The notes under the pieces are model-generated. The model was not told the DNA's origin. It was given only the letters and a program-made list of their open reading frames with translations, and made no database searches. Source: Candidatus Eiseniibacteriota bacterium (lineage in GTDB: Bacteria > Orphanbacterota > Orphanbacteria > Orphanbacterales > Orphanbacteraceae). Taken from it: a DNA stretch of 64,000 bases. The stretch covers positions 682,001 through 746,000 of the forward strand of contig JAJCZU010000004.1 of the NCBI GenBank assembly GCA_029262235.1, read 5' to 3'. A program made the translations under genes and the position numbers. This document shows, piece after piece, positions 48,173-54,209 of the stretch; position 1 is the stretch's first letter, and the number at the start of each line of letters is the position of its first letter.

Positions 48173-50812
48173 ATGCGCCGCTCCACTTTGCGCTGGCTCC
48201 CTCTGGCCCTCTCCCCGGCCCTTCTATATTTCGCCTGGCTCGCTGCCACGCACGAGGATGACTTCGTGCCGCCGCGCGGGCCCGGCGTTCCGAACGACTG
48301 GTTTTTCCAGCAACGCGCCTGGCCGACGGGCACGATCGACTACGAAGTACGCCGCGAAGCGATCGAGCACACGCGGGCCATGCGCGCAGAAGCCGGGCGC
48401 GCGAGCGACATGCGTTTCGCGAAACGCGCCGTGGCGACGGACTGGGAGGGCGTGGGCCCCGAGAATGTCGGCGGCCGTATCACCGACGTGATCGGGAATC
48501 CTTCGAACGCGAACGAAATCTATCTGGCGGCGGCTTCGGGCGGCGTATGGAAATCGACGGACGCGGGCGCGAACTGGACCGCGATCTTCGACGGACAGGG
48601 ATCGCTCTCGATCGGCGCGCTCGCGGTCGACCCGAACGACTTCGACGTGCTCTACGTGGGCACGGGCGAGGCGAACCCGGGCGGCGGCAGCGTCGCGTAC
48701 GGGGGCGACGGCGTCTGGAAAACGACCGACGGCGGTGTGAACTGGACGCACCTCGGGCTCACGAATACGCGCTATATCGGGCGCATCGCGGTCGACCCCT
48801 CGGACGCGGACAACGTTTTCGTGGCCGCCATGGGAAATCTCTTTTCGAAGAACGTAGACCGCGGCGTGTATCGCTCGACCGACGCCGGACAGTCGTGGAC
48901 GAAAGTGCTCTACGTGTCCGACTCCACGGGATGCGTGGATATCGCGATCGATCCGGGCACACCGACGCGCGTGTTCGCTACGATGTGGGAGCGCATTCGC
49001 AAGCCCGAATCGCGTAACTACGGCGGCCCCTCGAGCGGCATCTGGCGCTCGGAAGACGGCGGCGCGAACTGGGGCGAACTGACGAGCGGGCTGCCCGCAT
49101 CCGCGGGCCGTATCGGGGTGGCCGTGGCGCCATCGGATCCAGCGCGCGTCTATGCCGTGTACGCGGACGAAACCGGGTTCTTCGACGGCTTCTATCGCTC
49201 GACCGACAACGGCGACACGTGGTCGCAGCGCGCGGCCACAGGGCTCGGCACGTTCTATTCGTCGTTCGGCTGGTGGTTCGGGCGACTCTGGGTCGATCCC
49301 GGCGCGGCGGGCACCGTGTGGGCCGACGGCGTGCTGCTTTACAAAACGACGAACGGCGGCGCCTCGTTCACCGACGTCACGAGCAGCATGCACGTGGATC
49401 ATCATGCGCAGTGGATCAATCCGAACGACACGCAGGTCATGCTGAAGGGGAACGACGGCGGGCTCTATCGCACGACGAACGGCGGGGCGAACTGGAGCTT
49501 CGTCTCGAACCTTCCGATCACGCAGCTCTATACGATTGAAGTCCCGCTCGCGGCGACGGGCACGGTGTATGCCGGGCTGCAGGATAACGGCACGGTGCGG
49601 ACGACGGGCGGCGCGGGATCGTACAGCACGCTCTTCGGGGGCGACGGGCACTACGTGATTCAGGATCCGAACGACCCGAACACGATTTATCTCGAATTTC
49701 AGTACGGGAACTTCTACCGCTCGACGAACGACGGCGGCTCGTTCAGCTCGGCCGTAAGCGGAATCGCGGGCGCCGACCGCAGGAACTGGTCGACGCCGGT
49801 CGTGGTCGACCCCGCCAGCATCGGGAATGCAGACACGCGCCTCTACTTCGGTGCGAACCGGCTCTATCGATCGAACAACAGCGCGAGCAGCTGGACTGTG
49901 GTCGGCGGCGGCCTGGACTTCTCCGACGGCTTCGGCGGAAGCGGCGGCGTGACGTTCGGCACGATCACGACCATCGCGGTCGCGCCGAGCGATTCCGGCA
50001 CTGTCTACGTCGGCACTGACGACGCGAACGTATGGGTTTCGACAGACTACTGCACGACCTTCACCAAGATCGACACCGGCCTCCCGAATCGCTGGGTTTC
50101 GCGCGTGGCCGTCGACCCGGACAATGACGCCATCGCCTACGTGACGTTTTCGGGACTGCGGGACGACGACCCGCTGCCGCACGTATTTCGCACGATCAAT
50201 CACGGGGCCGCATGGACCGACATCTCAGGCAACCTGCCCGATGCGCCCGTGAACGACATCATCGTGGACGAAGACGACGGAAGCATTTTGTATGTGGGGA
50301 CTGACGTCGGCGTGTTCGTCACGGGCGATCTCGGCGCGTCGTGGTCGCCGCTCGGAAACGCGATGCCCGAAGGCGCGATCGTTACGGATCTCGAGTACAT
50401 TCCCGGCGCACTCGGAACCCCGAACCTGACGCCGCTTCTCTTCGCCGCGACCTACGGCCGCTCTGCCTGGAAGCTCGACCTGGCGATCGCGACCGGGGTC
50501 GACGTAGCAGAAGAGGAGGCCGCGAGCAGACCGGCACTCGCGACGATTGATGCGGTGATCCCGAACCCGTTCCGTTCACGAGCGGAAGTCGCGTTCACGA
50601 TTCCGGCAGCGGGCCCGGTACGCGTGGCGTTCTACGATATCAGCGGACGTGAAGTGCGCGTTCTCACGAACGAAGCGCGCAGCGCGGGCGCCCATCGCGT
50701 GACGTGGGACGGTCGTGACGAAAGCGGACGCCCCGTTGCGAACGGGGTCTATTTCGCGCGCGTCGAAGCGGGTGGGCGTTCGGAGTCGAAGAAGGTGACA
50801 CTGGTTCGCTGA
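48173..50812 (+). CDS. Secreted BNR/sortilin-like beta-propeller protein with FlgD-like C-terminal domain
   Basis: 879 aa; AAGGAG 7 bp before the ATG. Signal peptide STLRWLPLALSPALLYFAWLAA. Many Asp-box/BNR repeats: GGVWKSTDAGANWTAIFDG, GDGVWKTTDGGVNWTHLGL, RGVYRSTDAGQSWTKVLYV, GIWRSEDGGANWGELTSGLP and GGLYRTTNGGANWSFVSNLP, with GTGEANPG...YGGDG between the first two. This is the large 'glycosyl hydrolase/VPS10-like' propeller group; Asp boxes are structural and do not prove sialidase activity. The last ~85 residues are the FlgD-like tail: IPNPFRSRAEVAFTIP, VAFYDISGREVRVL, VTWDGRDESGRPVANG and SKKVTLVR. Likely cell-surface. Confidence 0.9.
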   Translation: MRRSTLRWLPLALSPALLYFAWLAATHEDDFVPPRGPGVPNDWFFQQRAWPTGTIDYEVRREAIEHTRAMRAEAGRASDMRFAKRAVATDWEGVGPENVGGRITDVIGNPSNANEIYLAAASGGVWKSTDAGANWTAIFDGQGSLSIGALAVDPNDFDVLYVGTGEANPGGGSVAYGGDGVWKTTDGGVNWTHLGLTNTRYIGRIAVDPSDADNVFVAAMGNLFSKNVDRGVYRSTDAGQSWTKVLYVSDSTGCVDIAIDPGTPTRVFATMWERIRKPESRNYGGPSSGIWRSEDGGANWGELTSGLPASAGRIGVAVAPSDPARVYAVYADETGFFDGFYRSTDNGDTWSQRAATGLGTFYSSFGWWFGRLWVDPGAAGTVWADGVLLYKTTNGGASFTDVTSSMHVDHHAQWINPNDTQVMLKGNDGGLYRTTNGGANWSFVSNLPITQLYTIEVPLAATGTVYAGLQDNGTVRTTGGAGSYSTLFGGDGHYVIQDPNDPNTIYLEFQYGNFYRSTNDGGSFSSAVSGIAGADRRNWSTPVVVDPASIGNADTRLYFGANRLYRSNNSASSWTVVGGGLDFSDGFGGSGGVTFGTITTIAVAPSDSGTVYVGTDDANVWVSTDYCTTFTKIDTGLPNRWVSRVAVDPDNDAIAYVTFSGLRDDDPLPHVFRTINHGAAWTDISGNLPDAPVNDIIVDEDDGSILYVGTDVGVFVTGDLGASWSPLGNAMPEGAIVTDLEYIPGALGTPNLTPLLFAATYGRSAWKLDLAIATGVDVAEEEAASRPALATIDAVIPNPFRSRAEVAFTIPAAGPVRVAFYDISGREVRVLTNEARSAGAHRVTWDGRDESGRPVANGVYFARVEAGGRSESKKVTLVR

Positions 50813-50878
50813 TACTCGCGTCCGCGCTGAACCGAGCGTCAGCGCTGAAACCAGCGTCCCCGCTGATATTCGAGAATC
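50807..50878. repeat. 18-bp tandem repeat (4 units) spanning both stop codons of two convergent genes
   Basis: Units begin with CGCTGA at 50807, 50825, 50843 and 50861, exactly 18 bp apart; the first three continue to a GCGTC near position 12. The first unit contains the TGA of the BNR gene. The palindrome TCAGCGCTGA at 50839-50848 contains the stop of the convergent gene (50839). Confidence 0.85.
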
Positions 50879-52923
50879 GGCGCGAGATCGTAATCGTCCC
50901 AGCCGCGCACATGTTTCGCCACGAGACGGAAATAATGGTCGTCGCGCGGGGCCGCCCGCCAGAAGAGAAACAGATCACCCAGGTTCTTGAGCGCGGGCAG
51001 CGTGTAGTAGTTGATCCCCGGCGGCCCCGCCTGGAACCACGTTTCGTAGACGCCCCAGATCTTCGGGCGATCCCCGAGTGAGATCGTCGCGACGTAAAGC
51101 GGGTCATCGAGCGGAAGCAACACGAGCCGCAGCGGAATGTGAACCGCGCCGCCCCTCACCCCGTACACCACGTCGTACCCGCCCATGAGCGGCGCGCGCT
51201 TCGAGCGACCGAAAATCCATTCCATCTCCATCGGATTCCCCGCCGCCGGCTCTCGCCGCACAGTGTCTTCGGGCAGCAGCAGGTACGGCTCGTTCGAGAA
51301 CTGCGCGAAGCCGATCGGAACGCGATCGTTCGCGGGCCATGCAAAATCATCCCCGGCGAGAAAGACACGATGATGATTGTGCTGCGCGAGAAGCACGCCG
51401 ACGGGCTTCCGGTCATGGGCCGAGAGCACGACATGCACGGCGCCGTGAATGTCGAGTTCGTGCCACGCATTCGGATCGCCGATCATGGCCCCCACGAAAC
51501 GCTTCCAGCCCGCAATCTCACGCGGCAATCCGCTGTAGGGGAATACGAACGAATACTTTAAGAACAGCAGCGTCTGCGTCGATCCACCCGGCAGCGCGAT
51601 CGTGTCTTCATAGATGCGTCCGTAAACCGGGGAAGCCATGCCGCGTTTCGGTTCCGCGATCGCCTCGTACTGCGGAAGCGTGTAGTCGAGATAGTAGTGC
51701 GCCGTGTTCTGCACGCGCACGAGGTCGCCCCTTGTGACAGTGTCGGCAACGACGCGTCGCCCGGCGTCCGCATCGCGCAGTACGCAGCGGGGCAGATAGT
51801 CCTCGTAGAAGTCGATCGGACCGTAACTGCTCGGCGCGAGCCACCCCTCGGGCATGTATCGCTGCAGGAGTTCGATCGTGGCCTGCTCGTTCTGGTCCCA
51901 CGACTTCATGCGATCCGGCGCGCGCTGGAACGATGCGACGAACGAGTCCTCGTCCCGCTTCGTGACGCCCTCGTCCCGCTCTGCGGCGCTCACGATCCCG
52001 GGCGCGCCGGCGATCCCGATCGCGACAAGCACCATCGCCGCCGCACGCGCGCCTCTTCCGCCGAGTGCGCGCTGGATCGCGATCCCCGCTACGATCAGCG
52101 TGAGACCCCAGAACGACGAGGGCAGGATGTCTTCGCCTACGAAACGGTGTACGAAGAAGAGGGAGAGAAAGGGCGAAAGGAACACGAGGTTTCCGATGCG
52201 CGCAGTGTGTGAGGTCCAGGTCATGGCCATCATCCAGAGCAGGAAGGGGATTCCCATTTCGAAGAGCCCGATATAGACGCCGCCCGCGAATCCGCCCGCG
52301 GTGAGCACGCGGTCACCGGTCCAGAGCAGATACGCGCCTGTAAGAACAGCGCCCACCCAGAAGTTCGTCATGAGCTTGACCGCCGCCGGCCGCGCGTCGC
52401 TCACGTTCAGGATCCAGTACGATGCCCAGACCACGGAGCTTCCGACCGCGAGTCCCGCGCCGAGCGGATCGCTGACGTGAAAGCCGAGCAGGTCGCCGCG
52501 CGTCGAAATTGTAAGCACGCCGAGAAAACTGACGCCGAGACCGAGCATGTGAGCGCGCGTGAGCGATTCCCCGCGAAACACGGCCGCGAGCAGCACGATC
52601 ATGAGAGGCCACGTGTAGTTCAGGGGCTGCGCCTCCTGGGCCGGGAGCCGCTCGTAGGCATGAAAGAGAATGACGTAATATAGGAAAGGGTTCAGTAACC
52701 CACGCAGGAGGGAGGGGGCGAAAGACGAGGGATGAATCGCGCGGCGCAGGTCCGCGCGCGAAAAGACCACCCCCGTGAAGAAGAGGGCGGCCGTGAGCGC
52801 GGCGAGAAAGAGTGTCATCGCCACGCTCAGCTGTCGTAACGTAAGCGCAAATGCCGTGGCGGCCGTCGACCACGAAAGCACCGCCCCGAGCGCGAGCATG
52901 ATGGCGAGTGAGTTCCGTGACAT
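50839..52923 (-). CDS. DMT/EamA-type transporter fused to a large secreted domain of unknown function
   Basis: 694 aa in one frame. Residues 1-290 are a ten-helix drug/metabolite transporter: LAIMLALGAVLSWSTAATAFAL, LLNPFLYYVILFHAYERLPAQEAQPLNYTWPLMIVLLAAVF, GLGVSFLGVLTIST, FEMGIPFLLWMMAMTW and LTLIVAGIAIQRALGG. At residue 297 begins MVLVAIGIAGAPGIVSAAERDEG, which looks like a signal peptide with an AXA-like end. The remaining ~380 residues are soluble: PIDFYEDYLPRCVLRDADAG, HVVLSAHDRKPVGVLLAQHNHHRVFLAG and WGVYETWFQAGPPGINYYTLP. I recognise no family for that part. It could be a true fusion or two genes merged, with internal initiation at 52035. Confidence 0.82.
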   Translation of the reverse strand: MSRNSLAIMLALGAVLSWSTAATAFALTLRQLSVAMTLFLAALTAALFFTGVVFSRADLRRAIHPSSFAPSLLRGLLNPFLYYVILFHAYERLPAQEAQPLNYTWPLMIVLLAAVFRGESLTRAHMLGLGVSFLGVLTISTRGDLLGFHVSDPLGAGLAVGSSVVWASYWILNVSDARPAAVKLMTNFWVGAVLTGAYLLWTGDRVLTAGGFAGGVYIGLFEMGIPFLLWMMAMTWTSHTARIGNLVFLSPFLSLFFVHRFVGEDILPSSFWGLTLIVAGIAIQRALGGRGARAAAMVLVAIGIAGAPGIVSAAERDEGVTKRDEDSFVASFQRAPDRMKSWDQNEQATIELLQRYMPEGWLAPSSYGPIDFYEDYLPRCVLRDADAGRRVVADTVTRGDLVRVQNTAHYYLDYTLPQYEAIAEPKRGMASPVYGRIYEDTIALPGGSTQTLLFLKYSFVFPYSGLPREIAGWKRFVGAMIGDPNAWHELDIHGAVHVVLSAHDRKPVGVLLAQHNHHRVFLAGDDFAWPANDRVPIGFAQFSNEPYLLLPEDTVRREPAAGNPMEMEWIFGRSKRAPLMGGYDVVYGVRGGAVHIPLRLVLLPLDDPLYVATISLGDRPKIWGVYETWFQAGPPGINYYTLPALKNLGDLFLFWRAAPRDDHYFRLVAKHVRGWDDYDLAPILEYQRGRWFQR

Positions 52924-52973: not shown

Positions 52974-54209
52974 ATGGCAGGGATTGCGACCGAGCGATAC
53001 GAATTCACGAACCGGAGCGGCGTGAGCCTCTCGGGACGCCTGGAGCTGCCCGAAACGCCGCCGCGTTTCTTCGCGCTCTTCGCACACTGTTTCACGTGTT
53101 CGAAGGACATTGCCGCGGCTTCCCGCGTGAGCCGGGCGCTGGCGGCGCGCGGGATCGCGGTGCTTCGGTTCGACTTCACGGGAATCGGAAACAGCGACGG
53201 CGACTTCGAGAACACAAGCTTTCAGTCGAACGTCGAGGATCTCGTCGACGCGGCGGGCGCGCTGGCGGAATCGCATGAGGCTCCGCGTCTTCTGATCGGC
53301 CACAGTCTCGGCGGCGCGGCCGTGATCGTTGCGGCACGCGGGATCGATCAGGCGCGTGCCGTCGTTACCATCGGCGCGCCGAGCGATACGGAGCACCTGA
53401 AAGATCTGTTCGGCGATTCGCTCGCTTCGATCGAAAGCGAAGGGTGCGCGCACGTGGACCTCGCGGGACGCTCGTTTCCGATCAGCAAGTCTTTTGTGGA
53501 CGACCTTGCCAACCACGTCGTGACCGCGGAGGCGAAGAAGCTGAAGAAGGCGCTTCTCGTGCTGCACTCGCCCGTCGATAACATTGTCGGGATCGAGCAC
53601 GCGCGTCGTATCTTCGAGGCGGCGCGCCACCCGAAGAGCTTTCTGTCGCTCGACGGCGCCGATCATCTATTGAACGATCGCGCGGACTCCCGCTTCGTCG
53701 CGGATGTCGTGGCGTCGTGGGCGGAGCGCTACGCTTCGGAACCGGCCGCAACTTCGCAGGACGAGCAGCCCGCCCCCGCACTCGCGCAGGGCGAGGTGCG
53801 CGTCGACGAACTCGGGCCGCACTACACGCAGGCGATCACTGCGGGGCGTCACCGCATTCTCGCGGACGAACCGCTTCATGTAGGCGGCGGCGATCAGGGA
53901 ATGACGCCGTACGATCTGCTGCTTGCCGCGCTCGGCACATGCACTTCGATGACGCTTCGGCTCTATGCCGACCGCAAGCAGTGGCCCCTGACCGGTGTCT
54001 CCGTGTCGCTCCAGCACGGCCATGTGTATGCGAACGACTGCGCCGAATGCGCCTCCACCGAGGGAAAGGTGGACCGGATCGAGCGCGTGCTCTCGATCGA
54101 GGGCGATCTGACCGACGAACAGCGCGCGCGCCTGCTCGAGATCGCGAACAAGTGCCCCGTGCACCGGTCGCTGCTCTCCGAAACCGTGATCCCGACGCGC
54201 ATGGCGTGA
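52974..54209 (+). CDS. Bifunctional alpha/beta hydrolase / OsmC-family protein
   Basis: ATG at 52974 with GAGGAG 8 bp upstream; 411 aa. Residues 1-250 are an alpha/beta hydrolase: LFAHCFTCSKDIAAASRVSRALAARGIAVLRFDFTGIGNSDGDF, LLIGHSLGGAAVIVA (GHSLGG elbow), LHSPVDNIVGIEHA and SLDGADHLLND. Residues about 280-411 are OsmC: GMTPYDLLLAALGTCTSMTLRLYADRKQWPLTGVSVSLQHG and LLEIANKCPVHRSLLSE, with the two peroxidatic Cys. This fusion recurs in many bacteria. It probably reduces organic hydroperoxides, with the hydrolase half removing an ester-linked group; its substrate is unknown. Confidence 0.92.
   Translation: MAGIATERYEFTNRSGVSLSGRLELPETPPRFFALFAHCFTCSKDIAAASRVSRALAARGIAVLRFDFTGIGNSDGDFENTSFQSNVEDLVDAAGALAESHEAPRLLIGHSLGGAAVIVAARGIDQARAVVTIGAPSDTEHLKDLFGDSLASIESEGCAHVDLAGRSFPISKSFVDDLANHVVTAEAKKLKKALLVLHSPVDNIVGIEHARRIFEAARHPKSFLSLDGADHLLNDRADSRFVADVVASWAERYASEPAATSQDEQPAPALAQGEVRVDELGPHYTQAITAGRHRILADEPLHVGGGDQGMTPYDLLLAALGTCTSMTLRLYADRKQWPLTGVSVSLQHGHVYANDCAECASTEGKVDRIERVLSIEGDLTDEQRARLLEIANKCPVHRSLLSETVIPTRMA

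Follow-up and report, generated by a model that had tools for sequence, protein, structure and literature searches.

Fusions of a transporter with a secreted domain are, as a kind, already known. For the transporter YddG, a ten-helix EamA core whose C-terminal end lies in the cytoplasm is established. The same ten-transmembrane architecture characterizes the EamA/drug-metabolite transporter (DMT) superfamily (PMC6508934). Cleavage within a membrane protein has been described for LtaS of S. aureus, in which signal peptidase cuts between the membrane part and the outer domain (PMC11898559). With regard to secreted domains, NLPs are defined by the heptapeptide motif GHRHDWE (PMC6743777), and part of the Pfam annotation of Vps62, that of the beta-tripod repeats, has been called spurious (PMC7613979). 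The libraries that we searched contain no description of the exact architecture reported below or of the family to which its C-terminal domain belongs.

Within the window, by which we mean the whole 64,000-nucleotide stretch of DNA that was analysed, a single open reading frame on the minus strand (50839..52923, read 52923→50839) encodes a protein of 694 amino acids with zero internal stops, consisting of an EamA exporter, an internal signal segment and a domain best regarded as Vps62-like. A preliminary description of this DNA had placed the frame correctly without giving its strand. Residues 1-288 (52060..52923, minus strand) constitute the transporter. Residues 6 to about 283 match two EamA repeats (Pfam PF00892, 104.4 bits against a curated cut-off of 28.2), and ten hydropathy peaks, the predicted ten helices, lie upstream of the signal segment, which bears out the earlier claim of a full ten-helix EamA pair. 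The nearest NCBIfam model is YddG (NF050091), with a score of 72.2 bits that is far under the 300-bit curated cut-off, so that the exported substrate cannot be specified further than as a small metabolite.

Residues 289-313 (51985..52059, minus strand) contain an Arg-rich linker, a hydrophobic core and an AxA-type end (PGIVSA). The Arg-rich sequence QRALGGRGAR precedes an eleventh hydropathy peak at residues 296-314 (mean KD 2.05 over 19 residues, and 1.51 in a sister species discussed below), acidic residues follow it, and the hydropathy profile of the 694-aa protein has no equally hydrophobic segment further downstream. The charge of +3 ahead of the segment and the acidic character behind it agree with the positive-inside rule. 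The signal-peptide-like segment previously proposed is thus present, with VSA|AERDE as an A/V-x-A type end at the eleventh peak, and residues 289-313 may represent a retained signal peptide or an eleventh membrane segment, with a predicted cut after Ala313. The part that would be exported begins with an acidic start and a lead that varies in the sister-species comparison (residues 314-341, 51901..51984, minus strand), and continues with the domain that is common to stand-alone secreted proteins (residues 342-694, 50842..51900, minus strand).

A second species of the genus (L003/G001; contig JABDJQ010000052.1 of a metagenome-assembled genome (MAG) labelled Gemmatimonadetes bacterium SS_bin_27) carries this frame at full length, encoding 699 amino acids with 86% identity. 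The fusion architecture was seen in these two species only. In a codon comparison between the two, dN/dS was 0.058 in the EamA part and 0.134 in the C-terminal part, and in both long parts the differences lie mostly at third codon positions. Both halves are therefore held in one frame, and both are under purifying selection. Although one might suppose that two genes were joined artificially by a missed stop codon or a chimeric contig, the same junction occurs in an independent MAG from another species with third-position divergence throughout, and the frame is the same there and free of stops. The fusion is thus not an assembly artefact, an explanation whose probability we regard as negligible, and the missed stop between the parts that the preliminary description had raised as a possible refutation is absent.

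The junction itself has drifted between the species, reading GRGAR / core / PGIVSA|AERDE in the window and GRGRR / core / PGIARA|DDDAG in the sister species, with a dN/dS of 0.80 over residues 289-326. Yet the layout of an Arg-rich stretch, a hydrophobic core and PGI-x-x-A was kept. In both species, positions -6, -5 and -4 are P, G and I, a permitted residue is at -3 and Ala is at -1, so both sequences have the positive n-region, hydrophobic core, helix breaker and small residues at -3 and -1 that signal peptidase I calls for. The genome of the window contains two signal peptidase I genes.

Several observations concern the surroundings of the gene. An 18-bp tandem repeat array of 3.3 copies (50807-50866), which has strong predicted RNA folding (z -4.9), runs across the stop codon of the fusion gene, and the sister species has the same array in 4.6 copies (L003 2150-2232). 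The array explains why the sister protein has the longer C-terminus (RWFQRDHGFQRER, compared with RWFQR here). A gene for a Sortilin/Vps10-type beta-propeller protein with a FlgD-Ig / secretion-sorting tail (48173-50812, plus strand) is convergent with the fusion gene, their stops being 26 bp apart. On the other side, a gene for an alpha/beta hydrolase fused to OsmC (52974-54209, plus strand) is divergent from it, with starts about 50 bp apart.

The relatives of each half indicate how the fusion arose. EamA orthologues occur in all five other genomes of the family that we examined, with about 50% identity, and they end right after helix ten. The C-terminal domain was not detected in any of these five genomes. 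As EamA is found there without the extension, the fusion is specific to the genus. In one of these genomes (G003), the counterpart of the sortilin-like neighbour of the fusion gene, 61% identical to it, is close to EamA, and a gene for a secreted metallophosphoesterase separates the two. In another (G004), a kelch-repeat gene adjoins EamA and a similar phosphoesterase gene is on the opposite side. These shared neighbours suggest that the EamA locus is common to the fusion and at least two relatives. In two related genera, the gene after EamA encodes a secreted, purple-acid-phosphatase-like metallophosphoesterase with a FlgD-Ig tail (L014 2665-4833 and L016 2607-5255, both on the minus strand), which is missing from the corresponding place in the window. 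Most simply, the extension was gained at a fixed locus within the genus; loss in all the other genomes is less likely.

To find relatives of the C-terminal domain, we compared a profile of the two fusion domains with a spread of 386 genomes, and obtained matches in G210 (E 1.3e-64), G249 (1.7e-50) and G155 (7.6e-27). Searches within the three phyla concerned added G401, G410, G412 and G408. The search proposed in the preliminary description thus yielded seven stand-alone homologues in three other phyla (four phyla with that of the window), so that the domain is not always found fused. The intact ones are separate genes with open frames of 424-512 codons, and one gene, that of G408, is partly masked in the data. 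Judged by eye, all seven start with an export signal: four have lipoboxes (G249, G410, G412 and G408), and three have signal-peptide or transmembrane starts (G210, G401 and G155). Since the stand-alone relatives all carry export signals, it is well supported that, in an ancestor of the genus, a secreted-protein gene was joined, signal included, to the transporter gene. The earlier suggestion of a fusion that kept its secretion signal therefore stands, given the signal-bearing homologues, the extension-free EamA orthologues and the conserved frame.

On a tree, a long branch of their own unites the two fusion domains, whose nearest relatives in terms of identity are the proteins of G401 and G210 (36-38%). 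An improved profile matched these lineages only among the 386 genomes, so the family is rare. A search of phages and viral contigs with the C-terminal domain found no match, and a match to a Streptomyces plasmid (E 0.3) was dropped, being weak and antisense to what appears to be another gene. The neighbourhoods of the stand-alone genes have nothing in common, and no adjacent EamA gene was seen. A phosphofructokinase-like gene, recognized by eye, is two genes from the stand-alone gene in the unrelated G210 (L029 8840-9919, LTGGGDCPGLNA) and G155 (L031 9292-10278, LTSGGDAPGMNA), which is possibly a coincidence.

The part of about 380 residues had been described as belonging to no recognized family. 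This statement remains true with respect to Pfam and NCBIfam, in which this part has no match, PADLOC and the PDB sequences, but not with respect to profile-profile comparison. The nine members of the family, compared with Pfam, have no match at E up to 5, and none in NCBIfam or among the PDB sequences. In PHROGs, one of the nine has a single weak match (E 0.028), and a link to defence systems was discarded, as PADLOC gave no match. However, the order of conserved blocks resembled that of Vps62-type proteins, and we therefore made a comparison with Vps62, for which bacterial members of PF06101 were collected. In hhalign, the profile of nine members aligned to a profile of ten Vps62-like sequences over 241 columns (probability 90%, E 1.4e-6), with a score of 52.5, whereas 100 column shuffles reached 22.4 at most and the reversed profile 18.0. 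Leaving out each Vps62-like sequence in turn gave E-values of 2.5e-7 to 3.6e-5. The relation depends on profiles of nine and ten sequences; with smaller Vps62 profiles, single sequences and a two-member profile were not significant, and a six-member profile was borderline (E 0.0013). A search of the window's genome with PF06101 found no match, nor did tblastn of Vps62-like proteins in plasmids or a scan of viral contigs. The aligned region corresponds to the DWE-bearing part of Vps62, rather than the disputed beta-tripod repeats.

Within the family, Trp487 is invariant, with H or R next to it, as are an acidic residue at W+4 (D491), H515 and E545. The GDWE-type motif of Vps62 is not kept, D-W surviving only in the lipoprotein subgroup, and the NLP heptapeptide is absent from all members. 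An AlphaFold2 model from nine sequences has a mean pLDDT of 66.5 and a pTM of 0.71, and is weak past model residue 277; a model from the two fusion sequences alone (pLDDT 33) was useless. With the medium-confidence model, Foldseek gave one significant PDB match, the NLP fold of 3st1 (E 8.1e-5, probability 1.00, TM 0.26/0.41). In BFVD, a viral protein of 328 amino acids, M1HG24, matches the model of residues 342-694 along its entire length (E 3.2e-10, TM about 0.5). We rejected the idea that the domain is an NLP or a toxin, as it has no Pfam NPP1 match, lacks the heptapeptide and gives no sign of toxin activity. We would classify the domain as a new and divergent family within the Vps62-like superfamily, to which its relation is distant. 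To judge from the fold of its relatives, its role would most plausibly be binding of a polar or charged ligand (a sugar, a phosphate or a lipid headgroup, perhaps with the help of a metal), rather than catalysis.

These results lead us to propose the following explanation. In the ancestor of the genus, a secreted Vps62-like gene, signal peptide included, would have been joined in frame to the end of a long-resident EamA gene. The one product would insert as a ten-helix exporter with its C-terminal end in the cytoplasm, from where the Arg-rich linker and the old signal peptide would act as an internal signal, an eleventh segment that passes the domain of about 380 residues to the outer face of the inner membrane. 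Most likely, signal peptidase I would then cut after Ala313 (PGIVSA|AERDE), so that the exporter would remain in the membrane with the stub of the signal, and the domain would be free on the outside. Taken as a whole, this account of a captured signal-bearing gene whose product is exported and clipped seems to us reasonably probable. The predicted topology and export of the domain are the firmest part and very likely, because the Arg-rich linker favours insertion of the next segment with its distal end outside, where the acidic residues that begin the domain would also fit. The cleavage itself is predicted with fair probability. In its favour are a c-region whose layout is conserved, a core that is short, the two signal peptidase I genes and the precedent of LtaS; against it, the core is hydrophobic and the majority of the stand-alone relatives resemble lipoproteins attached to the membrane. 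Whether the exporter doubles as a membrane carrier, or pre-protein, with a cleavable internal signal, such that exporter and released domain are made one-to-one, is in our estimate an even question.

The lipoprotein relatives raise the possibility that the segment is not cut at all, and instead, as an eleventh transmembrane helix, holds the domain in the periplasm beside the exporter, where it could bind or modify the substrate or scaffold the exporter in the envelope. In both species the hydrophobicity of the segment would suffice for a membrane helix, and both have retained the fusion itself. Since most relatives are lipoproteins attached to the membrane on the outside, such attachment may be the natural state, which the fusion would preserve by providing a replacement anchor. 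However, several features resemble a signal peptide more than an anchor: the core is short and broken by Gly-Pro, the AxA-type end persists in both species within a stretch that is otherwise under almost no constraint, and the sister species has Arg at -2. We therefore consider a permanent tether a tentative alternative that is rather improbable, though to be taken seriously. Far less probable is the preliminary description's suggestion of a start at ATG 52035 (codon M297, 52033..52035, minus strand). Most of the C-terminal protein would then be made from there, like any protein with a signal peptide, and the fusion would be incidental. In the window, this ATG does coincide with the beginning of the signal-like core. 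But the sister species has ATC in its place, and its segment contains no ATG, GTG or TTG; the purine-rich stretch GGAAGAGG is about 16 nt off, too far for a well-spaced Shine-Dalgarno sequence; a start at M297 would lose the Arg-rich n-region; and the long frame is conserved without a stop.

A further explanation is that two independent genes were fused by chance read-through and have no joint purpose beyond coupled expression. The stand-alone genes have no common neighbourhood and were not seen beside EamA genes. In G003, moreover, the corresponding position, flanked by the sortilin-like gene and EamA, is taken by an unrelated secreted phosphoesterase, so this is a spot where genes for secreted proteins come and go. 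On the other hand, both halves are under purifying selection in one frame across two species. This selection also allows two independent functions and is compatible with a chance fusion, which we judge plausible at slightly less than an even chance, and which agrees with a captured, exported and clipped domain in all but purpose. Either way, relatives of this fusion between a polytopic transporter and a secreted protein with an intact signal peptide still display the unfused state of both halves. The fusion thus offers a clean case in which to ask whether a signal peptide inherited within a membrane protein is cut or kept as an anchor, and it defines a rare, unnamed secreted family in four phyla, distantly related to Vps62-type proteins.

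In comparison with described systems, the C-terminal domain is most similar to Vps62-type proteins (PF06101), with which it is collinear, having the same order of conserved blocks including a GP-rich block near the end, and a bacterial protein matching PF06101 (L057) also begins with a signal peptide. In contrast to these proteins, the domain is missed by the Pfam model, lacks DWE, differs in its C-terminal part and has no visible beta-tripod repeats. The likeness to NLP/NPP1 proteins (PF05630) consists of the 3st1 fold match with its low TM-score, and the Vps62-type fold itself resembles NLPs; the domain is larger than these proteins, and their heptapeptide and the Pfam NPP1 match are missing from it. 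The N-terminal half has the two repeats and ten helices of EamA/drug-metabolite transporters; the orthologues of this half, unlike the fusion protein, have neither the signal segment nor the outer domain of about 380 residues. The fusion is unrelated in sequence to LtaS, and its candidate site, where cleavage is a prediction, is apparently a whole inherited signal peptide. Nonetheless, the fusion, like LtaS, would be a multi-spanning membrane protein with an outer C-terminal domain, which in LtaS is freed by signal peptidase at an internal site.
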